From assembly GCF_902859745.1 (NCBI RefSeq), contig NZ_CADIJW010000006.1:1-64000 (forward strand): a stretch of DNA of 64,000 nucleotides. The letters are read 5' to 3'. This document shows, in pieces, positions 40,240 through 52,632 of the stretch (its first letter is position 1; each line of letters begins with the position of its first letter). Source of the stretch: Achromobacter dolens (GTDB taxonomy: Bacteria > Pseudomonadota > Gammaproteobacteria > Burkholderiales > Burkholderiaceae_B). The notes under the pieces are model-generated. The model searched no databases and had not been told where the DNA came from. It saw only the letters and a program-made list of their open reading frames with translations. The position numbers and the translations under genes are program-made.

Positions 40240-40422
40240 TTCAGGACCTGATCAATACGGGGTTCGGCGGTACAGCCGGGACGCGGGTGCCCGATATTCT
40301 GTCACGTTCCTCGCGAAAATTGCATCACTTTGGCAGTGATTCGGGGCGCGTCATGAGACTTTCTGGCCGAGACTACCCGGCCGAGGCGCGCTGGCGCGTC
40401 AACGCCGATCCGGCCTCCCAGT

Positions 40423-40543
40423 GCATTTGCCCATGCTTTCCGGCATTGAAATTCTGGATTGCCAGGACGATCTCCGCCTGAGAATTCATCACAAACGGCC
40501 TCGATCGGCGTGAAAGTACGGACCGGAGACCGTTCTGGCTTCG
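40423..40543 (-). pseudogene. Remnant of a pirin-like gene (C-terminal end plus an internal piece)
   Basis: 40423-40500 matches the last 26 codons of the intact pirin gene at 49822-49899 with about 88% identity (both contain CGACGATCTCCGCCTG), but the stop codon is changed to Trp. Directly next to it, 40501-40543 matches pirin positions 50140-50181 (TCGATCGGCGTGAA). About 240 bp between the two parts is missing, so the copy is internally deleted and cannot encode the protein. Confidence 0.8.
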
Positions 40544-40878
40544 ATTCCGTTAGCCCTGTTCCCGCCGAAATTCTCGACGCACATGCTGATCGAAGACGCG
40601 TTCAAGGCCGCCAATGTGCAATTGCCGATAGCGGCGGAAACGGATAGCACGGAGTCGCTCCTGGCGGTCTCCGGGGATGGGCAGCTTGGGACATCGTTCC
40701 TGAAACGGCGGCGACGGGCTTCGGGCGCGGCAATTTCGTCCCTATCACGCAGCCGGAATTGTTTCGACAACTCCGCTTGCCGTGGCCGAAGGGAGCAGGG
40801 GGGACTCGCGCCGCGACGACTTTCGCCTGGATGCTCAAGGAGATATCCATGGCAGTGAGAAAGGGCCAGAACGTGTGA
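40544..40878 (+). pseudogene. Remnant of a LysR-family regulator (C-terminal half, frameshifted)
   Basis: Reading from 40544 gives IPLALFPPKFSTHMLIEDAF and then AAETDSTESLLAV, typical of the LysR effector domain. After a frameshift near 40672 the sequence continues in another frame with DIVPETAATGFGRGNFVPI, RQLRLPWPKGAGGTRAATTF and MLKEISMAV up to a TGA at 40876-40878, the usual LysR C-terminal pattern. The helix-turn-helix half is absent. Its left end abuts the pirin remnant. The rest of the gap 40240-40920 shows no other feature. Confidence 0.72.
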
Positions 40879-40920: not shown

Positions 40921-42453
40921 TTAGAACCGCCTCTCCAGCATCAGGCTGACCTCGGTCCGGTCCCGCGCATACATGGGCAGATTGCTGGTGATCTTGAGGT
41001 AACTGAGGTTCAGCTTCGGCTCCATCCCGGCTATCTTGAGGTCCGGCCTCCAGACCGAGGCGTCCACGCGCAGTTCATGATCGCGCCGCCGCTGGTTCAG
41101 GAACAGGGCGTAGGGCGCCTCATACGCCTGGCGGCCATAGCGGGCGCTCAAGCGCGTGCCCAACATTTGCCCAAAGGTCTTGACCACGCCCAGCTGCGCC
41201 CAGGGAAAGCGATAGGTGTATTCGCCCGCCGCCACCGCCTCGCGCTGCAGCCCGACGCTGGCGTAAGCCAACAGCGCTGGCGAGAACACGCGGATGGCCG
41301 TCAGCGACAGCACGTCCAGATGGCCGTCATAGGCGGCATAGGCCCGATCGTCATAGCCGCGCTTGAGCCACAGCCAGGCCCCCATCAACTGCCACCCCGG
41401 CGTTGGCCGCCACCCGTACTCCAGGCTCAAGCCGCGGTTGTGGCTATAGCGCCGGCTGCCCATCCAGCTGCGGCCCGCCTGGGGCGTCGCGGCAAACCAG
41501 CGCGTGGCATCCTGCCACTTGTAGCCGCCGCGCAAGGTCAGGGAGCGGTCGCTGTAGTCGCGTTGCACGCGATACGCGGTGCCGTCGATATCCGCGCCCA
41601 GCGTGTAGTAGTGATGCCCGCCGAGATTGCGTTCGACATTGGCGCTGCTGCTGTATTTCAACCCCCAATCCGCCTTGGGCAACGCGTCGCGGCCCTTCGC
41701 GAACGGCACCCATACGGGACCTTGCCGTGTCGCGACCGGCAGGTACAGCATTGGGTCGCGGTTGGCCGAATTGACGTTGTTGCTGTAGACCGTGCCCGCG
41801 CCCAGGCGGAAATTCCAGCGGCGCTGCTGCGCCAATGCCTGACGGTAACGCATGACGCTGCGCTGCGCCGCCGGCTCCAGCGACCCCAGCCGCAGGTCGG
41901 CCAGCTCGGCGTCGGACTGCGCGAATTGGCGATCCTCCATCAGCATGGTGGCCAGTTCCAGCCGTACGTAGCCCAGGTCGGGATGCTGCGCCACCAGTTG
42001 GCGGTACAACGCGATGGCCTCGGCCAGCCGCCCGTCGTGGCGCAGCAGCGCGCCATGCACGTAGTCGCGCAGGATCGGATCGACGCCGGCCATCCAGGGG
42101 TAGAAGCGCATCACCCGACGCAGGGTGCTCCAGTCCTCTTGCAACATCGCCTGGTTGAGGATGCGTTCGGTCAGCTTGAGGTCGTCGGCCAGGTCCTGGT
42201 CGGTCAGTTCGACGGGGGGCTGGGCTGGTTGGGTGGGCTGGCGGTGCGTGATGGCGGGCGTGGGGCGAGGGGGAGGGGGGAGCGTCGGGGTGTCCGGCTC
42301 CAGGGGGCGGACGGGAGCGGGCAGGACGGCGGGTGACGGCGTGGCGGGTTGGGCCTGGAGCGTAAGCGGGTAGCCCGTGACCAACAGGCTGATGACGATT
42401 GCCGTGAACAGTGAATGACGGCGAGAGGGGTTGGACCAGAGAGGGTGCGGCAC
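40921..42453 (-). CDS. Slam-type surface (lipo)protein assembly modulator, type XI secretion outer-membrane translocon
   Basis: 510 aa from the GTG at 42453. A signal peptide (HSLFTAIVISLLVTGYPLTL, cleavage near LQAQP) leads into a Pro-rich linker, a helical TPR-like periplasmic domain (about 90-210: LRRVMRFYPWMAGVDPILRD, RLAEAIALYRQLVAQHPDLG) and a beta-barrel ending in LMLERRF. This is the Slam (DUF560) architecture, which moves hemophilin-like or lipoprotein clients across the outer membrane. The hemophilin-like gene directly upstream is the natural client. A longer reading frame starts at TTG 42486, but that codon overlaps a terminator U-tract. Confidence 0.86.
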   Translation of the reverse strand: MPHPLWSNPSRRHSLFTAIVISLLVTGYPLTLQAQPATPSPAVLPAPVRPLEPDTPTLPPPPRPTPAITHRQPTQPAQPPVELTDQDLADDLKLTERILNQAMLQEDWSTLRRVMRFYPWMAGVDPILRDYVHGALLRHDGRLAEAIALYRQLVAQHPDLGYVRLELATMLMEDRQFAQSDAELADLRLGSLEPAAQRSVMRYRQALAQQRRWNFRLGAGTVYSNNVNSANRDPMLYLPVATRQGPVWVPFAKGRDALPKADWGLKYSSSANVERNLGGHHYYTLGADIDGTAYRVQRDYSDRSLTLRGGYKWQDATRWFAATPQAGRSWMGSRRYSHNRGLSLEYGWRPTPGWQLMGAWLWLKRGYDDRAYAAYDGHLDVLSLTAIRVFSPALLAYASVGLQREAVAAGEYTYRFPWAQLGVVKTFGQMLGTRLSARYGRQAYEAPYALFLNQRRRDHELRVDASVWRPDLKIAGMEPKLNLSYLKITSNLPMYARDRTEVSLMLERRF

Positions 42454-42484
42454 GGGTCTTCCGGATGCGGCGGCTTGAATAGGC

Positions 42485-42514
42485 AAAAGGACTGCAGGGG
42501 AATCCCTGCAGTCC
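42485..42514 (-). terminator. Intrinsic terminator/attenuator between the hemophilin-like gene and Slam
   Basis: On the minus strand GGACTGCAGGG and CCCTGCAGTCC form a perfect 11-bp stem (42514-42504 with 42499-42489) with a 4-nt loop, followed by TTTT at 42488-42485. It lies 110 nt past the hemophilin-like stop and about 30 nt before the Slam start, so it may lower Slam expression relative to its client. Confidence 0.82.
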
Positions 42515-42623
42515 GTGATGGGAGCGATCGCAATTCAATGGCGGCCAATATCAAATAGCAGTCCGATTTGGGTCGCTATCTATTTGATGTTGAAGAGATA
42601 TTGCTCCGACCTTCTGGTAGCGA

Positions 42624-43514
42624 TTACTGTTTTGCGCCGATGACCGCGACGGAGCCGACGCGGTCAGGCAGACCGTTGATGGCGCCTGCGATTTCCGCGC
42701 CGTTGGGGCCAAAGAGCGTCAGGTCATATTCCGGTTTCGCTACGAGACCACCGATTTCCTTCCACGCGTCGGGATTGCTGACGTCGTTCGTGGTGATAGT
42801 CACGTCTCCGGCGAAGACCAGACCGTTGCCGGTCGCATCCAAAGCCGTCGGATCCAGCTTGCCGTTATTGATGTTGAAGACAATGTCCTTGCCGGTCGAG
42901 GATATCTTGGCAGGAATCTTGATCTCGTCCAACGAGAATGACCCCTGGCCCGTGGCGGAGCTGGGGCCCGTTACCGTGACCTGGTAATCGAACATGCCAC
43001 GCGGGAAGTTCGAGAAGGTCACACCGGCGTAGTTGTAGGTGCCATTTACCAGCGTATCCGGCGCGGTCTGCTCGCCGACGATGCTCTTGACGAAGTGGCG
43101 GCCCACTGTGCCACGTGCAAGGTTGACCACCGCCGCCGAGTAGTTCTGGCGGTAGACGCGGTATACCACCGGAGACTTGACGCCGGCGGCCGCGGAATTG
43201 TCATTGGAGGTCAGGCTCAGATCATCGTTGCGACCTGTGCCTGCGGGGCCGTTCTTGCCGTACAGGGTGAAGGCTTGCAGGGAGTTCAGATCGAATACGT
43301 TGGAAATGCCTGTGCTGGCCTGAGTCGGAACGGCCGCGGAAGTGGAGGGACCGTAGGTCTGACCGTTGTAATTGAACGAGCCCTGGTAAACGACATTTGC
43401 TTGTTCTTCCAGGTTGCTGGGTTGGTCGAGGTCCAATTGGTTCCAGCCTGCGGAGGCGACGCCGGCGGATCCGGTCATCAGCAAGGCGGCGGAAAGTGAG
43501 GCGAGTTTGCGCAT
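42624..43514 (-). CDS. Hemophilin-like secreted protein, probable Slam client
   Basis: 296 aa. The N-terminus MRKLASLSAALLMTGSAGVA with cleavage after ASA is a signal peptide without a lipobox Cys, so the protein is soluble rather than a surface lipoprotein. The C-terminal 100 residues look like the small beta-barrel handle of Slam-dependent proteins: FSLDEIKIPAKISSTGKDIV and ending YDLTLFGPNGAEIAGAING with the final IGAKQ, close to the FGPxAxExGG...GAKR ending of transferrin-binding-protein-like and hemophilin C-domains. The middle part (about 25-190) would be the ligand-binding domain. AAGGA precedes the ATG. Heme as ligand is inferred from the family. Confidence 0.78.
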   Translation of the reverse strand: MRKLASLSAALLMTGSAGVASAGWNQLDLDQPSNLEEQANVVYQGSFNYNGQTYGPSTSAAVPTQASTGISNVFDLNSLQAFTLYGKNGPAGTGRNDDLSLTSNDNSAAAGVKSPVVYRVYRQNYSAAVVNLARGTVGRHFVKSIVGEQTAPDTLVNGTYNYAGVTFSNFPRGMFDYQVTVTGPSSATGQGSFSLDEIKIPAKISSTGKDIVFNINNGKLDPTALDATGNGLVFAGDVTITTNDVSNPDAWKEIGGLVAKPEYDLTLFGPNGAEIAGAINGLPDRVGSVAVIGAKQ

Positions 43515-43648
43515 GGTCGTGTCCTTGAAAAGGGATGATGAACGATCCCCAGTGGCAACAAGGGTTGATTTTTGGGGACCTGGGTGAACCCGGCAGCCAG
43601 CGTTGTCGCCAGGACTGCGACCTGATCGGCTAGGATCCACACATCTAG

Positions 43649-43677
43649 GAGGACACGCGACCAGTGGTGAAAGTGCA
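43649..43677 (-). promoter_or_regulatory. Shared 29-nt motif upstream of the hemophilin-like gene (candidate ECF promoter)
   Basis: On the minus strand TGCACTTTC, 7 variable nt, GTCGCGTGTCCTC. An identical-core copy lies at 46619-46647 upstream of the receptor gene, with the same 7-nt spacer. The motif ends about 135 nt before the hemophilin-like start. The local FecI-like sigma factor is the best candidate reader. Confidence 0.65.
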
Positions 43678-43763
43678 CGCCGTGTGCCAAACCCATGCAG
43701 CCTTTCGTCCGATTCGGTTATATGCGGCAGAGGACGGCTGCGCGTCGGATGATCCGGATACCT

Positions 43764-46535
43764 TCACAAGCGGTAGCTCAAGGTCAGCAACGCATTCCGT
43801 GGCGGTGCTGAATTAAAGGAGCGTTCATGCTGGTAGTAGACCTTGTCGAATATGTTGTTGACGTTCAGTTGCATGCTGAAGTGCCGGTCGATCTGGTAGC
43901 GCACCATTAGGTCGACGACGTAGTAGGCGTCCTGTCGCATCAGGTAGTCCTGCTTGCGGTGCTCTAAGTCCATGGGAATCCAGGCGGACTGTGTGCGGCT
44001 CTGCCAGCGCACGCCCGCGCCCATGGTCAGGCGTTTGACGCGATAGGTGGTGAACAACTTGAAGGATTGTTCGGGCGCGCGATAGCTGCCGGTCAGGTCG
44101 TCAACCGCCGAAAACATGATCTCCCCCTTGAATGGCGGCAGGACCTGTTTTTGTTTGACGTAGCCCACGGCGATATTCCAGTCTTTCGTGATAGCGCCGG
44201 TGGCATTGAATTCCCATCCATAGACGCGCCAGCCGTTGTTGTCAGTAGTCGGGGCGTTGGGGTCGTAGCTTTGAAAGGGAAAGTCCTTTTGTGTCATCCT
44301 GAAGTAGGATGCTGCGATATTGAGGCGTTCGTCGAAAAATGCGCCTTTGAGGCCTCCCTCCTCGGTGATCGAGCGCACCGGGGGGAGGTAATCGCCGGTA
44401 ATGGCGTTGGTGCCACCGTTTGAACCGTTATAGACGGGGTCGCGCACGTAGGACGTTGTATAGCTGCCGTAGGCATTGATCTGCGGCGTCAGTTCGACGA
44501 TCAGACCGCCATAGGGCAGGAACTTCGGGCGCATGGTGGGGTTGGTGGAATTGGGAAGGAAGTGGGTGGAGTTGCAGTGGTCGACTAGACAGTCGGTGTC
44601 GACATGGTCCGTCTCCACATCCTTGGCCCAACGCCCGCCCAGAATGAGATGAACGCGCGAAATCGGTCGCAAATGGCTGCTGAAGTAGTACCCGGTTTGC
44701 CGGCGCTTGGTGATATATCGTTCCCTGGCGCTGTACATGTCCCTGCGGGAGCCGGCCAACTCTGATTCCTCGGGAAGGCGAGCGGTCCAGCCTTTGATGG
44801 GAATTGCACCTATCGACGTGCGGTCCATGGGCGACCTCGGTGGGAGGCAAGAGCGATTGCGGCGGCCACATGACTCGAAAGCGAGTAGGGGGTATTCCGC
44901 CGTCCCGAAGGAATCATAGCCACCGTAGACCATGTGATTCACGTTATAGGCATTGGCGCCCACGACGAATTCCTGGTCTCGGCCGAATGCCTCAATACGG
45001 CCTTTCAGGTGAACATCCACGGCATTGACGATGTTCTCTTGATGGTCGCGTTTGGCAACGTAGCTGGCCAACCCCGCTTGGGGCACGTAATAGCGGGATC
45101 CCATTTCCCCGTACAACTGGTCGTCCATGTTGCTGGCATGGTTGTAGCTGGCCTTGAATGACCAGTCGTCGTTGAAAGCATGGTCCCAGGTGAGAAACAG
45201 ATTGGTGTAATTACGATGGGTGTGTGACCAAGGGGTTGCGTTATTGAAGCCGCGCGAGACGCCTCTGGTTGGCAATACGCTGTCGCCTGGTGGCAGGTCG
45301 CGTATGCCCTCCGGTAGAAATTCTTTTTCTCCAGGCCGGAATCTGTTGTTTGACACTTCCGAATACCTCGCCAAGCCATGCGGCGAGGCCCCGTCCAGCT
45401 TGAAGTCGAATTGCGTCACGCCGGCGCTGATGCGGTTGTTCTCCGTCACATCCAATTGCCCGATCAGCGACACCGCGCCTCGATTGCTCTTGACCCGCTC
45501 GACCCAGTGATTACCCTTTTGCATGGCTGCCGCCAGCCGCACCCGGAACCGGTCGTTGACCGGCGTGGAGAGGTCCAGCTCGGCGCGGCGATTATTCCAG
45601 CTGCCGTATTTCAAATTCGCCGACAGGTGACGATCCAGGTAGGGATACTTGCGCACGAAGTTCAGGCTGGCCGACGCATCGCCTTCGCCGCCGGTCAGGC
45701 TGTTGGAGCCGCGGATCACATCGATGCGCTCGTACAGAAAGGAATCCTGCAGCCCGATGTTGCCGTTGGCGGAGCCGGACAGTATGTAGCTGCTGGCCAT
45801 GACGCCATCCAGTTGCACCGAAGTGACCGGAAAAGTCCGTGAATAGACAGGTTGGTTCCCGGCGCCCGCCACGCCGGCGGTAATCAGTGTGATGCCTGGC
45901 GTCTGGTCCAGCACTTCACTGACCGTCAACAACCCCTGATCCTGAATCTGCTGCGCCGTGAACGTGGTGATGCTCTGCGGCGTTTCCTTTGGCGCCAGGT
46001 CTAGCTTGGTGGCGCTGGACGTGCTGCTGACGGTGTAGCCCCGGTTGGGCGCGTCGCCTTCGCGGTAGCCGCTGACGGTGACGGCGTTCAGCTGGGTCAC
46101 ATCGGTGGCGTCCTCGCCTGCCGCCTTCGGCAAGCCGCGCAGCATGTAGCGCCCCGGCGCACGCGCCACCGCTTCGAATCCGCTGCCTTGGAGGATGCGG
46201 CGGAAACCCGCCTCCACCTCAACACTTCCCCGCAACCCGGCGGATTCCTTTCCCGCAAGCAGCGAGGCGTCGAACGACAGGCTGACGTCGACCGCCTGCG
46301 CGTACTGGTTCAGCACCGTGGTCAGCGGACCGGCCGGGATGTCCACCTGCAAGGTGCTGGCGGCGAGGGCTGCCGAGGGCGTTTGCGCGTGGGCGGCGCG
46401 CAGCGGCGTGAAGGCGGCCAACAGGCATATGAGCGTGAGATTCAGCGTGAACTGGCGCGCGCCCGGCGCGGCAGGGTGCGAGGAGCGGCCAGGCGCGCAG
46501 GCCGGTGAAGTGGAGGGGTGATCGTGCATGGACAT
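43764..46535 (-). CDS. TonB-dependent receptor with N-terminal signalling (STN) domain
   Basis: 923 aa from ATG 46535 (46571 or 46529 are alternatives; no start has a strong ribosome site). After the signal peptide (LICLLAAFTPLRAAHA) comes an STN domain (LQVDIPAGPLTTVLNQYAQA ... GRYMLRGLP), then the plug (ETPQSITTFTAQQIQDQGLL, RIDVIRGSNSLTGGEGDAS) and the 22-strand barrel ending LLTLSYRL. STN domains contact FecR-type regulators in the periplasm. Barrel style is that of the siderophore-receptor family, so both heme delivered by the hemophilin-like protein and a ferric siderophore are possible ligands. Confidence 0.92.
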   Translation of the reverse strand: MSMHDHPSTSPACAPGRSSHPAAPGARQFTLNLTLICLLAAFTPLRAAHAQTPSAALAASTLQVDIPAGPLTTVLNQYAQAVDVSLSFDASLLAGKESAGLRGSVEVEAGFRRILQGSGFEAVARAPGRYMLRGLPKAAGEDATDVTQLNAVTVSGYREGDAPNRGYTVSSTSSATKLDLAPKETPQSITTFTAQQIQDQGLLTVSEVLDQTPGITLITAGVAGAGNQPVYSRTFPVTSVQLDGVMASSYILSGSANGNIGLQDSFLYERIDVIRGSNSLTGGEGDASASLNFVRKYPYLDRHLSANLKYGSWNNRRAELDLSTPVNDRFRVRLAAAMQKGNHWVERVKSNRGAVSLIGQLDVTENNRISAGVTQFDFKLDGASPHGLARYSEVSNNRFRPGEKEFLPEGIRDLPPGDSVLPTRGVSRGFNNATPWSHTHRNYTNLFLTWDHAFNDDWSFKASYNHASNMDDQLYGEMGSRYYVPQAGLASYVAKRDHQENIVNAVDVHLKGRIEAFGRDQEFVVGANAYNVNHMVYGGYDSFGTAEYPLLAFESCGRRNRSCLPPRSPMDRTSIGAIPIKGWTARLPEESELAGSRRDMYSARERYITKRRQTGYYFSSHLRPISRVHLILGGRWAKDVETDHVDTDCLVDHCNSTHFLPNSTNPTMRPKFLPYGGLIVELTPQINAYGSYTTSYVRDPVYNGSNGGTNAITGDYLPPVRSITEEGGLKGAFFDERLNIAASYFRMTQKDFPFQSYDPNAPTTDNNGWRVYGWEFNATGAITKDWNIAVGYVKQKQVLPPFKGEIMFSAVDDLTGSYRAPEQSFKLFTTYRVKRLTMGAGVRWQSRTQSAWIPMDLEHRKQDYLMRQDAYYVVDLMVRYQIDRHFSMQLNVNNIFDKVYYQHERSFNSAPPRNALLTLSYRL

Positions 46536-46618
46536 ATCGCGGCATAGTGATTGAACGGGAAGCGAGGCCATGGCCGGAACCGGTTCGGTTCGCGTCCATG
46601 GCGAGCGCCATCGTCATT

Positions 46619-46647
46619 GAGGACACGCGACGTACTACGAAAGTGCA
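46619..46647 (-). promoter_or_regulatory. Shared 29-nt motif upstream of the TonB-dependent receptor (candidate ECF promoter)
   Basis: Minus-strand TGCACTTTC, 7 variable nt, GTCGCGTGTCCTC: all 22 fixed positions agree with the copy at 43649-43677. It ends 84 nt before the receptor start used here. It sits between the fecR-like stop and the receptor gene, where a FecI-dependent promoter would be expected. Confidence 0.68.
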
Positions 46648-46736
46648 AATGCGATTTAAAAAAATACTTATGTGATCGCTTTTACGCTTGACCCGTGGCG
46701 TCGGGCACGAGGCCGCCGCCTGCGCCACCGCCCCGG

Positions 46737-47732
46737 CTACGCCCCTGGGCGCGCCAGCACCGTCACCCAGTAGCGCGTATGCCGCCGCACCTGCACAGGG
46801 AAACTGTCCGAGATTGCTTCCAGCGCCTCGTCGGTGTCCCGCAATGAGAAGACCCCGGAGACCTTCAGATCGGCCACCGCCGGATCGCACCGCAGAATGC
46901 CGGGCCGATAACGCGCCAGTTCGGCGACGACCTCGGCCAGTGGCCGATCCTCTACAACCAGACGGCCATGCAGCCAAGCCTGCGCATCCAAGGACGCGGC
47001 GCCCACCGGCCCCGCGCCGTCGGCATCGAACGACACCGCCTGACCGGCGCGCAGCAGCACCGCAGGGATGCGGATCGAAGGGTGATTCTGCGTCTGGCCA
47101 GGCAGGATGGTGGCCGAATGTTGCAACACCTGCACCCGCGTGTCGCGGGTATCCAGCCGCACCGTGAAGCGGGCCTCCTGCGGCAGGATGTCGCCATGCG
47201 GCGTGCTGACGACGAACGGGCGCGGCATGGCCCGCGAGGTCTGGTCCTGATGGACCTGCATCAGGATCTCGCCGGCACGCAGCACCACCCGACGCCGCGC
47301 GTCGCTGAAATCCAGCGTCACGCAGGTGGCGGTGTTTAGATAGAGCTGCGAGCCGTCGTCCAGTTGAAATTGGCGCAGCTCGCCGGTCGCGGTCTGCCAG
47401 ATGTCCGACTCCCCTGACCGCATGACGCCATAGGTGCCGGTGGCCAGCAGGCCCATCCCCATCAACGACAGCAGGCTGCGGCGCTGCGCGCGCCGGCGCG
47501 CGGACGGGGTGAGCACGGCCGTGGCGACATTAGCCGGCACGCGGCTGAAGGCGCCCCGCATCTTCTGCAGTCGTTCCCAGGCCTGGCGATGCGTGGGGCT
47601 GGCGTCGAGCCAGGCCTGCCAGTCAACGCGATCGCGCGGCGTCGCGTCTTCGGCCATGAGGCAGGCAAACCAGCGGGCGGCTTCGTGTACGGCCGATTCC
47701 TCGGCGGACGACGGCGGGCGGGACTCGGCCAT
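46737..47732 (-). CDS. FecR-like anti-sigma/sigma regulator
   Basis: 331 aa. Cytoplasmic N-terminal domain (HEAARWFACLMAEDATPRDR ... WQAWLDASPTHRQAWERLQ, DUF4880 pattern), one membrane helix (SLLSLMGMGLLATGTYGVM, about 105), periplasmic FecR domain (ATGELRQFQLDDGSQLYLNT) and a C-terminal STN-like end (LVVEDRPLAEVVAELARYRP). It passes the receptor's occupancy signal to the sigma factor encoded upstream. The gap to the fecI-like gene is 16 nt, so they are co-transcribed. Confidence 0.93.
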   Translation of the reverse strand: MAESRPPSSAEESAVHEAARWFACLMAEDATPRDRVDWQAWLDASPTHRQAWERLQKMRGAFSRVPANVATAVLTPSARRRAQRRSLLSLMGMGLLATGTYGVMRSGESDIWQTATGELRQFQLDDGSQLYLNTATCVTLDFSDARRRVVLRAGEILMQVHQDQTSRAMPRPFVVSTPHGDILPQEARFTVRLDTRDTRVQVLQHSATILPGQTQNHPSIRIPAVLLRAGQAVSFDADGAGPVGAASLDAQAWLHGRLVVEDRPLAEVVAELARYRPGILRCDPAVADLKVSGVFSLRDTDEALEAISDSFPVQVRRHTRYWVTVLARPGA

Positions 47733-47748
47733 GCAACCTGCCGGGGGA

Positions 47749-48270
47749 TCAGAAGGCCGCCAGGCAGCAGTGCGCCATGGCGCGCGCGATGTAGTTCTTC
47801 ACCGTGCGCAGCGAGACATTCAGATTCACGGCGATCTGCGTGTAGGGCAACCCTTGGAACTGCGATAGCACCAGGGCCTGCCGCACCTTCGGGTCGAGGC
47901 CGTCGAGCATGCGATCGAACTCGAACAACGCCTCGCGCACCAGGGCCTGGGTTTCGAGGGAAGGCACCTGCTGATGCGGCAGGGAGGCCAGGACTTCGAG
48001 ATAGGCGATTTCCAGCGCCTGCCGCCGGTAGAAATTGGCCACCAGCCGTCCGGCCACGGTAGCCAGATAGGCGCGCGGTTCGCGCAGGGGGGAGGTGTCG
48101 ATGTGGAGGGGAGTGGCGGCGCACAGCACGCGGACGAAAGTGTCCTGGGTCAGATCGTCGGCGTCTTCGGCGCGGCGGACTTTAGTGCGAAGCCAGTTGC
48201 GCAGCCAACCGTGATGCTCGCGGTATAGGCCACCGACCTGGTGGGCGGTGGGGGCGAGGCACTTTTTCAT
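47749..48270 (-). CDS. FecI-like ECF sigma factor
   Basis: 173 aa. Region 2 (LYREHHGWLRNWLRTKVRRA, DLTQDTFVRVL) and region 4 (LSQFQGLPYTQIAVNLNVSL, TVKNYIARAMAHC) are in order, with no extra domain. ATG 48270 gives MKKCLAPTAH; a longer frame to 48387 would begin with an unlikely Pro-rich stretch. It likely directs RNA polymerase to the two shared motifs in this locus. A Fur box was looked for upstream and not recognised. Confidence 0.93.
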   Translation of the reverse strand: MKKCLAPTAHQVGGLYREHHGWLRNWLRTKVRRAEDADDLTQDTFVRVLCAATPLHIDTSPLREPRAYLATVAGRLVANFYRRQALEIAYLEVLASLPHQQVPSLETQALVREALFEFDRMLDGLDPKVRQALVLSQFQGLPYTQIAVNLNVSLRTVKNYIARAMAHCCLAAF

Positions 48271-48701
48271 GGTGGGGACGGCGGGGAGTGAAGTGCGAAT
48301 GGGAAGTGTTTTGTTTTTATAGTCGATGGGGTAGGGGGATGGGCGGGGGGCTGGGGGAAATCGGGTTTGTCTGAGGTGGGAGGGCACCGTCGTGGCTGTC
48401 GGGGAAGTGCTTGGTCAGCTTAATGTGGGTCACTGATGTGATTTGGCGAGGACCGCTTCCGGCCAGGAAGAGTCACTCATTCTGGTGGACATTTCGACAT
48501 TCGTGCGACAGCTGTACTTCATCCATGGACGTTCGACCATCGCGATGTGCGTTGCGTCATCCAATAGTCGTTTGGCATGCATGTTCGGGCCATCCCGCTT
48601 CAGGGGGTGGATACAATGCAACGCAGCGGGCATAGTATGCAATATCAACGCAAGCGCGCTGACGCCCAAGCCATTTCAAACCATATCCATAGGGAAAACA
48701 T
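48271..48701. other. Non-coding gap upstream of the fecI-like gene
   Basis: About 430 bp without a convincing gene. The left part is G-rich with an AT-rich patch (48306-48322, TATAAAAAC on the minus strand) that could be the sigma-factor gene's -10 region. The right part is AT-richer and leads into the orphan gene at 48702. No Fur-box-like palindrome was seen by eye. Confidence 0.4.
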
Positions 48702-49776: not shown

Positions 49777-49817
49777 CTCATCCAGCAGGACCGACCAGCT
49801 AACGCCGGTCCCGTCCT

Positions 49818-50681
49818 TTAATGCATCTGCCCATACTTCCCGGCATTGAAGTCCTGGATCGCCTCGACGATCTCCGCCTGCGAATTCATCACAAACGGCC
49901 CGTATCCCACCACTGGCTCGTCGATCGGCTCGCCGCTCAACACCAGGAAAACGGCGTCGTTGTTGGCTTCGACCGTGATCTCGTCGCCATCCTGCGAGAA
50001 CAGCGTCAGTTGCGCGTCGCGCGCCACCGCTTCGCCGTTGACCAGCACCGTGCCGCGCAGCATCACCAGCATGCTGTTGCGGCCCGCCGGGATCGCGAAG
50101 GTCGCGGTCTTGCCGGCGGCCAGGCGCACGTCCCACACGTCGATCGGCGTGAAGGTGCGCGCCGGGCCGGTCTGGCCGCCGTAGCTGCCGGCGATGACGC
50201 GCAGCGAGCCGGCATCGCCAGGCAGCGACACCACCGGGATATCCGCGTTCAGCAGGCTCTGGTAGCCGGCCGGCGCCTTCTTGTCCTTGGCCGGCAGATT
50301 GACCCACAACTGCACCATCTCCAGCTCGCCGCCCTGGCGGGTGAACGCGGGGGAGTGGAACTCTTCATGCAGGATGCCCGAGGCGGCGGTCATCCACTGG
50401 ACGTCGCCGGGCCCGATGACGCCGCCGTTGCCGGTGGAGTCGCGGTGCTCGACCTCGCCGCTGTAGACGATGGTCACGGTTTCGAAGCCGCGGTGCGGAT
50501 GCTGGCCGACGCCGCGCGGTTGCGTGGCCGGCGCGAATTGCGCCGGGCCGGCGTAGTCCAGGAGCAGGAACGGGCTGACGTTCTTGCCCTTGTCGTTGTA
50601 CGAGAACATCGAGCGCACCGGAAAGCCGTCGCCCACCCAGTGGGGACGCGGGCTGGCATGCACACCCAGAATCTTCTTCAT
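49818..50681 (-). CDS. Pirin-family protein (quercetinase-like cupin)
   Basis: 287 aa bicupin. The metal-binding segment QHPHRGFETVTIVYSGEVEH (His residues and Glu) and MTAASGILHEEFHS are the pirin hallmarks; the C-terminal cupin begins near VWDVRLAAGKTATFAIPAG. Members act as quercetin dioxygenases or redox-dependent regulators. ATG 50681 is preferred over 50690 because AGGA then has proper spacing. A degraded second copy of this gene is at 40423-40543. Confidence 0.92.
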   Translation of the reverse strand: MKKILGVHASPRPHWVGDGFPVRSMFSYNDKGKNVSPFLLLDYAGPAQFAPATQPRGVGQHPHRGFETVTIVYSGEVEHRDSTGNGGVIGPGDVQWMTAASGILHEEFHSPAFTRQGGELEMVQLWVNLPAKDKKAPAGYQSLLNADIPVVSLPGDAGSLRVIAGSYGGQTGPARTFTPIDVWDVRLAAGKTATFAIPAGRNSMLVMLRGTVLVNGEAVARDAQLTLFSQDGDEITVEANNDAVFLVLSGEPIDEPVVGYGPFVMNSQAEIVEAIQDFNAGKYGQMH

Positions 50682-51594: not shown

Positions 51595-52632
51595 TCAATC
51601 CTGCCGGCCGCGGCCGCCACTGGCGCGAGCTCCCGGCGGGAAGGCGGGGCATTCCGCGCCGGCCGCCGTGCGATCAGCCGCCGTGCGATCAGCCGCTGTA
51701 CGATCAGCCGCTCCACCATCGGTCGCCGCACCCTCGGCCGCCCCACCATCGGTCGCCGCACCATCAGCCGCCGCACCCTCGGCCGCCCGGCGGGCCTGCG
51801 CCAGGCTGGCCTGGACCTGCTCGTGGACGGGGCCATCCGGGTCGACCAGCGGCAGCAGGCGTTCCCAGGCGTCGATGGCCCCGTGGAAGTCGCCGCGGAA
51901 AAACGCGCTGGTGCCGGCCAGGGCCAGGCCTTTCACGTCGTCGGGCGCAAGCGCCAGCAGCCGGCCGATCAGGCGGTCGGGTTCGCCCGAAAAATCTCCG
52001 TCCGCCGCGGTGGCCAGGAGGTCGGCCCAGTCCGCCAGCACGCCGGGATCCTGCGGCGCCCGGGCGCCCATGCGCGCCCAGGTTGCCGCGCCGCCGGCGA
52101 AGTCCCCCAGCGTCGCGTAGGTGTGGGCCAATGTCATCCAGCCCTCGGTGTCGTCCGGGTGGGCCTGCAGGTGCTGGATCAAGCCGGCCAGCCGTTCGGC
52201 CATGGGATCGCCGGCGTCGTGCCCGGCGCTGGCGGAGGGCGACGCGTGCGGGTCGGCGTCCGCCGGCGTCAGGGCCGCCGGGTCGCCGAGCGCGGCGTAC
52301 AGGCCGACGCTGATCGCGCCCAGCCCCAAGGCCACCGCCAGGGCCCAGCGGGGCGCGGGCCGGGTATCGAGGCGGTCCGGCGCCGCGCATCCTTCCCGCA
52401 GGGCGCGCCGCTCGATCTCGGCGCGCGCCTGGGCATAGTGGTCCGGGGCGATTCGCCCGCTGGCATGGTCGGCCTGCAATTGCGCCAGTTGTTCGCGCAG
52501 CACCGCCAGGGATGCCTGCGCCTGGGGCGAGCCGCCGCGCCGGCCGGCGGCTTCTGGCGCCAGCAGGGGCGGCAGCACGAACAGCAGGGCGACGGCGACC
52601 ATGCCGGCCGCGAGGAGCCAGAACAGGGTCAT
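51595..52632 (-). CDS. ccmI: Cytochrome c biogenesis protein CcmI
   Basis: 345 aa. N-terminal membrane helix MTLFWLLAAGMVAVALLFVL, a cytoplasmic segment LREQLAQLQADHASGRIAPD, a second helix (ALAVALGLGAISVGLYAAL) and a periplasmic TPR domain (GWMTLAHTYATLGDFAGGAA). CcmI holds apocytochrome c for the CcmF/H heme ligation complex. The C-terminal 60 residues are low-complexity Ala/Asp/Gly/Thr/Arg, encoded by a 15-bp tandem repeat. It overlaps ccmH by 4 nt and is last in the ccm operon. Confidence 0.93.
   Translation of the reverse strand: MTLFWLLAAGMVAVALLFVLPPLLAPEAAGRRGGSPQAQASLAVLREQLAQLQADHASGRIAPDHYAQARAEIERRALREGCAAPDRLDTRPAPRWALAVALGLGAISVGLYAALGDPAALTPADADPHASPSASAGHDAGDPMAERLAGLIQHLQAHPDDTEGWMTLAHTYATLGDFAGGAATWARMGARAPQDPGVLADWADLLATAADGDFSGEPDRLIGRLLALAPDDVKGLALAGTSAFFRGDFHGAIDAWERLLPLVDPDGPVHEQVQASLAQARRAAEGAAADGAATDGGAAEGAATDGGAADRTAADRTAADRTAAGAECPAFPPGARASGGRGRQD
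51662..51781 (-). repeat. Eight 15-bp tandem repeats inside ccmI
   Basis: Consecutive 15-mers starting GCCGCCGTGCGATCA (51662) and continuing with related units to 51781, e.g. GTCGCCGCACCCTCG. The period is a multiple of 3, so copy-number change keeps frame and only varies the CcmI tail. Confidence 0.8.

Follow-up and report, generated by a model that had tools for sequence, protein, structure and literature searches.

The 64,000-nucleotide stretch of Achromobacter dolens DNA analysed here, referred to as the window (NCBI RefSeq assembly GCF_902859745.1, contig NZ_CADIJW010000006.1, positions 1 to 64,000), carries at positions 40921-48270 a cluster of five minus-strand genes in the order fecI-fecR-receptor-client-Slam. 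Open reading frames and Pfam matches assign them to a FecI-like extracytoplasmic function (ECF) sigma factor, a FecR-like anti-sigma factor, a TonB-dependent receptor with an STN signalling domain, a secreted protein without lipobox (the client) and a Slam translocon of the type 11 secretion system (T11SS). As judged from its sequence, the locus would join cell-surface signalling to a T11SS by means of an fHbp-like carrier (fHbp, factor H binding protein) and a siderophore-class receptor, parts that are known in a combination that appears to be new. It is moderately probable that these genes form a loop that resembles the Serratia Has system but uses different components: a carrier exported through Slam would deliver its load to an iron-chelate receptor, and the receptor, once occupied, would induce both itself and the carrier.

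The evidence comprises the gene content, the conserved gene order, a duplicated element specific to the locus, the exchange of receptor barrel and client as a block, and paired changes in STN and FecR. The cluster is real and most likely a single functional unit; confidence is high for this unit and its wiring, moderate for the carrier function and low for the exact ligand. The initial annotation of the window had listed the same five components, all of which are present, and had taken the whole for a hemophilin system wired to FecI/FecR. The wiring is supported by the conserved linkage and by the element common to receptor and client genes, whereas the hemophilin type gives way to an fHbp-like client and a receptor probably of the siderophore class.

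The five genes and their shared element

The FecI-like gene (47749..48270; 173 amino acids from the ATG at 48270) matches Pfam Sigma70_r2 and r4_2 above their cut-offs and scores 185 bits on the NCBIfam FecI model, under its equivalog cut-off of 260. The FecR-like gene (46737..47732; 331 amino acids) reaches 56 bits on Pfam FecR and 50 bits on DUF4880, both above cut-off; in total, the 6.29 Mb genome contains 22 FecR matches, this gene included. The receptor gene (43764..46571; 935 amino acids as listed, with an uncertain start codon) matches STN, plug and barrel models above their Pfam cut-offs, the STN domain being located at 46137..46286 (residues 96-145; PF07660, 30.7 bits, cut-off 28.4). 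An ECF sigma factor, a FecR anti-sigma factor and an STN receptor side by side constitute the FecI/FecR cell-surface signalling arrangement. The client gene (42624..43514) codes for a protein devoid of Cys, the first 22 residues of which (43449-43514, ending ASA-GW) read by eye as a signal peptide. The Slam gene (40921..42486; 521 amino acids as listed) scores 152 bits on SlipAM, with a cut-off of 22, and 87 bits on TPR_Slam, likewise above cut-off; this SlipAM match is the only one in the genome. The listed Slam start is a TTG inside the tail of a hairpin described below, and an alternative GTG start is found at about 42453.

Client-bearing genomes are few: 5 of 43 in the genus, 5 of 151 in a family sample, 2 of 399 in an order sample and 1 of 369 in a class sample. 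Each of these counts includes the window, the samples overlap, and the class sample was searched with the family profile; the class-sample genome is the window itself, and the order-sample pair consists of the window and a decayed copy in genome G383. The closest named relatives of the client are those of A. ruhlandii and A. insuavis, at 73%. Altogether, nine intact loci of the window type and one decayed locus were found. The complete five-gene order is present in the window and in loci L011, L021, L022, L023 and L024. Loci L013 and L014 keep this order with a shortened FecR, and L012 keeps receptor, client and Slam, with a FecI/FecR pair just 37-39% identical that lies on the other strand, behind Slam. 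Conservation of Slam and receptor together in other genomes, on which the initial annotation depended, is thus borne out by neighbourhood comparison in five loci with the full order and three more with receptor-client-Slam. The decayed relative (L025:4852-11573) belongs to family f44, perhaps Neisseriaceae; its receptor is interrupted by a gene that by eye is transposase-like, its client and Slam are in pieces, and no FecI/FecR match was seen. The client was not found in plasmids, whose receptor relatives are below 60% identity, and viral contigs yielded no further client sequences.

The association with FecI and FecR does not extend to Slam loci in general. Within the order, a further 40 Slam loci were surveyed. 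They correspond to the 45 strongest matches minus the window and four more, namely the second rows of the pairs at G229:C1:1357 kb and G498:C101, which fall within stretches already included, and the fragmentary G498:C189 and G339:C95. FecR was detected near none of the 40 and a FecI-like gene near two, both of genus g13 and near HphA-type loci. Therefore, the FecI/FecR link is not a general property of Slam neighbourhoods, and a generic Slam-FecR linkage was not seen in these 40 loci. Two stretches, L089 and L094, gave no match even with Slam queries.

A promoter-like element, TTGCACTTT-N11-GCGTGTCCTC, precedes the receptor gene (46619..46648, minus strand), and a second copy with one mismatch to the consensus precedes the client gene (43649..43678, minus strand). 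The exact form, GCACTTTC-N(7-11)-GTCGCGTGTCC, has two matches in the 6.29 Mb genome, both at the locus, and none in a reversed control. A genome-wide search with the consensus TTGCACTTT-N11-GCGTGTCYTC, allowing up to three mismatches, returned the receptor and client copies (zero and one mismatch, respectively) and one match with three. The element is unique to the locus within two mismatches, although the genome has as many FecR matches as indicated above. The third match (40592-40621, same strand) lies beyond Slam, is followed by no evident gene and is probably due to chance.

Both copies are kept in six loci (the window, L011 and L021-L024). In the 12 sites of these loci, chosen by a search allowing up to five substitutions, TGC-CTTT and GCGTGTC occur at one spacing without exception, and GCACTTT is intact in all but the client copies of L023 and L024 (10 of 12). 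In the L013 and L014 loci, whose FecI is 54% identical, the receptor start carries TTGCACT and GCGTGTC, spaced identically. The element was not found in L012, whose FecI is unrelated (38.5%), nor do the receptor and client upstream regions of this locus have any 8- to 11-base word in common. Thus, the element appears to follow the sigma factor across loci. Since it is common to the receptor and client genes and confined to the locus, the window FecI, which would read it, most likely controls both genes.

Between client and Slam there is a hairpin with an 11-pair stem and a T run (42489..42514, minus strand), a possible partial terminator. A hairpin with a T-rich tail is present at this junction in 8 of the 9 loci, with different sequences in L011, L012 and L013, in a survey that took the best of many sub-windows without a shuffled control. 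The hairpin may hold Slam below the level of the client.

Some observations on these control regions are less favourable to the proposed wiring. The client copies of the element in L023 and L024 carry four and five substitutions with respect to the window form. The L013/L014 element overlaps the listed receptor start codon, so for it to lie upstream translation would have to begin at a later ATG. Terminator-like sites in the region number 3, compared with a mean of 6.2 in shuffled sequences. A crude scan found no Fur box before fecI in the Achromobacter loci, those of L013 and L014 being weak (13/19). In addition, the survey of Slam loci had two queries for FecR, which a divergent FecR could escape, and three for FecI, and 7 of the 40 stretches fell short of 10 kb, limited by contig ends or by the extent of the stretch taken.

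The client and its receptor

The initial annotation had assigned to the client a hemophilin-like C-terminal barrel, and domain models point elsewhere. Pfam FHBP_C matches all nine intact clients at E up to 0.1, the basis on which a C-terminal barrel of this type is predicted, and neither HphA_N nor HphA_C matches any of them at the same threshold. In the window client FHBP_C is the sole Pfam match up to E 0.1, with 28.6 bits and a cut-off of 28.1. With a profile of the nine clients, solved fHbp chains are recovered in two colinear stretches (E about 8e-5), and the 11 matches to solved structures up to E 5 include no hemophilin. When the client profile was aligned by hhalign with ten fHbp-type frames from family f44 (one of them, L101, a 129-residue fragment), a probability of 97.4% was obtained over client residues 117-280; the controls gave 0.4% for the reversed set and 0.1% for the HphA-type client of locus L077. 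The client strand YRQNYS (YRQKHS in L013 and YRQKQS in L014) corresponds to the motif Y(K/R)Q-x2-S, which occurs in eight of the ten f44 frames. Cys is absent from all nine clients, window included; therefore the client is not a lipoprotein, and lipidation of the fHbp type was rejected.

The receptor is closest, among solved structures in the PDB, to FpvA (5odw) and FauA (3efm), FhuE being also near. The receptors of the window, L012 and L013 score 202-226 bits on the siderophore model TIGR01783 versus 61-80 on the heme model TIGR01785; the L012 receptor, with 225.5 bits, is above the TIGR01783 cut-off of 223.5, and that of L013 reaches 202. On the FauA model the window receptor obtains 277 bits, the equivalog cut-off being 900. 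A heme-class, HphR-like receptor was discarded, the TonB-hemin model giving 76 bits versus a cut-off of 316.85. From these scores the receptor appears nearest to the FpvA/FauA/FhuE siderophore receptors and not to heme receptors. Its most variable stretches are around residues 400-440, 545-615 and 655-675, two of which contain Cys pairs, and they are candidate docking loops.

A hemophilin-type heme uptake system, with the client as an HphA/Hpl-like heme carrier and a receptor that takes heme, is favoured by the export machinery and layout of the window locus, which equal those of HphA-HsmA-HphR. Besides, the family does contain a Slam locus whose client is of the HphA type and whose receptor is heme-class, together with an ECF gene. 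This locus, L077 (L077:8253-14130, genome G013, genus g13), a second and independent pairing of sigma factor and Slam, has the ECF sigma gene, receptor, client and Slam in a row, with no FecR detected; L093 is similar, its HphA-like frame containing an in-frame stop. As a control, L077 behaves as a hemophilin locus should: its client scores 39 bits on both HphA models and its receptor 323 bits on the heme model versus 96 on the siderophore model. Thus, the tests used recognise hemophilin loci, and the window locus is not one of them. Since the HphA models fail with all nine clients, the profile sides with fHbp and the receptor fits siderophore models better than heme models, heme uptake of this type is an unlikely explanation of the locus; for the window client itself, domain models and profile comparison led to the rejection of the hemophilin type.

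The assignment to fHbp has its own weaknesses, which must be weighed against it. The window client alone is just 0.5 bit above the FHBP_C cut-off, and the NCBIfam model for factor H binding, with a cut-off of 200 bits, gives it 13.9. Used as a single query against the PDB, it retrieved no fHbp chain, and a genome-wide FHBP_C search at E 0.001 missed it. FHBP_C also matches other, larger proteins, and the assignment is therefore to a barrel family and not to fHbp function. About the first 80 client residues matched nothing, so the ligand-binding part may be new. An AlphaFold2 model of the client without its signal peptide, based on three aligned sequences (those of the window, L007 and L008), had a mean predicted local distance difference test score (pLDDT) of 30. 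One His (H140) is invariant in the nine clients, a point that also counts for hemophilin, and heme binding by the client is possible for this reason. With respect to the receptor, the 207.8 bits of the window protein on TIGR01783 are under the cut-off. In summary, the window protein taken alone shows a weak relation to fHbp and it is the family profile that carries the case: the client would belong to the fHbp barrel family, marginally so for the window member.

Exchange of receptor barrel and client between lineages

Natural variation divides the locus into three readily separable modules: signalling (FecI, FecR and STN), recognition (receptor barrel and client) and export (Slam). Comparison of the window with L023 and L024 delimits the second one. 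DNA identity is about 97% through fecI, fecR and the receptor start and again in Slam; in between, from about 45850 to about 42500, bins of 150 bases are 44-90% identical. The divergent block (42451..45900, minus strand, breakpoints +/- about 150 bases) comprises the receptor from about residue 240 to its end and the client. The number of synonymous substitutions per site (dS) between window and L023 is 0.134 for fecI, 0.059 for fecR and 0.097 for receptor residues 40-240, rises to 1.265 for the remainder of the receptor and 1.219 for the client, and drops to 0.072 for Slam; L024 behaves alike.

Phylogenetic trees follow the same division. The client and barrel trees are concordant and group the window with L021/L022 (support 100/98 and 99/98), and the Slam tree groups it with L023/L024 (100/99). 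The approximately unbiased (AU) test rejects the grouping of window, L023 and L024 for the client (p 0.0012) and the barrel (p 0.0065), and that of window, L021 and L022 for Slam (p 0.0024) and, weakly, for FecR (p 0.036). These groups were named after the identities had been seen and the p values are therefore optimistic; the dS step does not depend on the groups. Because of the shared dS step and the concordant trees, barrel and client can be said to have travelled together, and on this sequence record they were exchanged as one block between Achromobacter lineages.

This exchange bears on the possibility that receptor, FecI and FecR make up a common siderophore transducer system and that the client-Slam pair, an unrelated surface or secreted factor such as a factor H binder, has no more than its regulation in common with it. 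Some Achromobacter are opportunistic pathogens, and Neisseria fHbp is reported to bind complement factor H. To our knowledge, FpvA/FauA-class receptors normally need no extracellular protein partner. However, the barrel was exchanged in one block with the client and shares its tree, which FecR and Slam do not, and receptor, client and Slam stay together even with other regulators (L012) or with reduced signalling parts (L013 and L014). Mere co-regulation seems improbable, slightly more so than hemophilin-type uptake. For the same reason, the common exchange and tree of barrel and client, the alternative contemplated in the initial annotation, a siderophore receptor merely adjacent to the Slam pair, is disfavoured.

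The signalling module varies as a unit as well. The shortened FecR proteins, which come from two species and have 90 residues in L013 (L013:12842-13066) and 94 in L014 (L014:12251-12463), correspond to no more than the N-terminal part of FecR and could alternatively be remnants, and Pfam finds no STN match in the receptors of these two loci. Between L012 and L011, the plug is 95% and the barrel 79% identical, the values for STN and FecR being 46% and 39%; the L012 STN match is under the Pfam cut-off (22.1 versus 28.4). Thus, STN and FecR change together, the former being lost where FecR is cut and both having diverged in L012. Such paired change is as expected from FoxA/FoxR, whose STN and FecR domains are reported to bind each other (PMC11637429). 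The export module, Slam, stays with the locus throughout.

The surroundings of the locus appear to differ between the compared genomes. Similarity to L023 and L024 ends abruptly near 48450, just upstream of fecI; downstream, it continues past Slam to 38551 in L023 and ends near 40800 in L024. These abrupt and differing ends suggest that the locus occupies different genomic places. A 100-base direct repeat of 83% identity flanks it (40401-40500 and 49801-49900), the copy at 49801 looking like the end (3') of a pirin-like gene on visual inspection, and may mark the insertion route of the locus or a lost gene copy. Further away, at 51645-51794 of the window, there are seven overlapping 60-base copies with 15-base spacing in G+C-rich DNA.

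Proposed mechanism and known systems

In the Has-like loop that we favour, Slam would export the soluble fHbp-like client, which would capture an iron chelate outside the cell and hand it to its partner, the STN-bearing FpvA/FauA-like receptor. Occupancy of the receptor would be transmitted through the STN domain to FecR, freeing the FecI-like sigma factor, and this would transcribe two units by means of the two element copies: the receptor gene and the client-Slam operon. The hairpin after the client gene would hold Slam below the client. By analogy with Serratia Has, we infer that the client itself may be part of the inducing signal. The chelate is most likely a ferric siderophore, because of the receptor class and the kinship of the barrel with fHbp, for which xenosiderophore binding has been reported; heme is a possible, less likely ligand. 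Alternatively, the client could oppose uptake, sequestering the ligand from competitors or blocking the receptor of a circuit that senses competitor siderophores, as a soluble client, in excess over Slam if the hairpin acts as thought, might do and as reported for the H. haemolyticus hemophilin that sequesters heme from a competitor (PMC10964412), but a pure sequestering protein would presumably have no need of a matched receptor allele and this explanation is very improbable.

The closest analogue of the proposed wiring is the Serratia Has system (HasI/HasS, HasR, HasA, HasD/HasE), which was not among the systems named in the initial annotation. Both share the order sigma factor, anti-sigma factor, transducer-receptor, secreted carrier and exporter. 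They differ in the carrier, which is fHbp-like and not HasA, in the exporter, a Slam/T11SS instead of the type I exporter HasDE, and in a receptor nearest to siderophore receptors. A HasA-type hemophore with its own export proteins was discarded, the Pfam match of the client being FHBP_C and the exporter gene SlipAM. Induction of Serratia Has is reported to require heme at HasR with the hemophore present, a precedent for the logic of the loop (PMC9249621). The Acinetobacter HphA-HsmA-HphR system likewise unites a secreted client with its Slam and a TonB receptor at a single locus (PMC8560813); the window locus lacks HphA domains and a heme-class receptor and adds FecI/FecR control, and neither FecI nor ECF appears in the main text of that article.

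As far as we know, no Slam-exported protein partner has been described for the FpvA or FoxA circuits. In FpvA/FpvR/FpvI and FoxA/FoxR/FoxI, the likeness to the window locus concerns the receptor class, the STN domain and the FecR- and FecI-type partners (PMC9249621, PMC11637429). With fHbp, the window client shares the C-terminal barrel family, the YRQ/YKQ-x2-S strand and the condition of Slam client, and it differs in not being a lipoprotein, in its unmatched N-terminal part and in adjoining its own receptor, probably of the siderophore class. In the T11SS survey of Grossman 2025, 285 soluble and 54 lipidated fHbp-like cargoes are predicted (PMC12282271), and the window client would fit the soluble class; the main text of this survey contains no FecR, sigma factors, siderophores or Achromobacter. 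Slam neighbourhoods are also treated in PMC8406197 and PMC5449769. The former mentions neither FecR nor sigma in its main text; in the latter, 'sigma' occurs three times, each as the name of a supplier, and FecR was not looked for there. Among the matches listed in the open-licence literature, no title or start of abstract describes a Slam under FecI/FecR control.

In vitro binding of xenosiderophores by fHbp has been reported (Veggi 2012, cited by PMC5607398 and PMC5472700), although a review calls the role of this binding undemonstrated and its link to iron regulation questionable (PMC5472700), which also tempers the choice of ligand made here. A broader and more tentative reading, which we regard as conceivable but rather doubtful, would make the client a Slam-exported siderophore carrier with its own receptor and sigma factor, an iron-acquisition relative that explains xenosiderophore binding by fHbp, and barrel and client a specificity cassette that is swapped while the signalling and export modules stay fixed, re-aiming the circuit at new chelates.

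If the Has-like loop is correct, the locus would represent a Slam/T11SS system under dedicated cell-surface-signalling control, and the logic of Has, in which a secreted carrier helps to induce its own system, could be built from unrelated families of carrier, exporter and receptor. The soluble fHbp-like cargoes, which are poorly understood, would gain a likely partner and a testable class of ligands, and the locus would bear on whether siderophore binding by fHbp has a meaning. Finally, the exchange of modules among Achromobacter lineages would offer a natural experiment on the joint evolution of receptor and carrier specificity.

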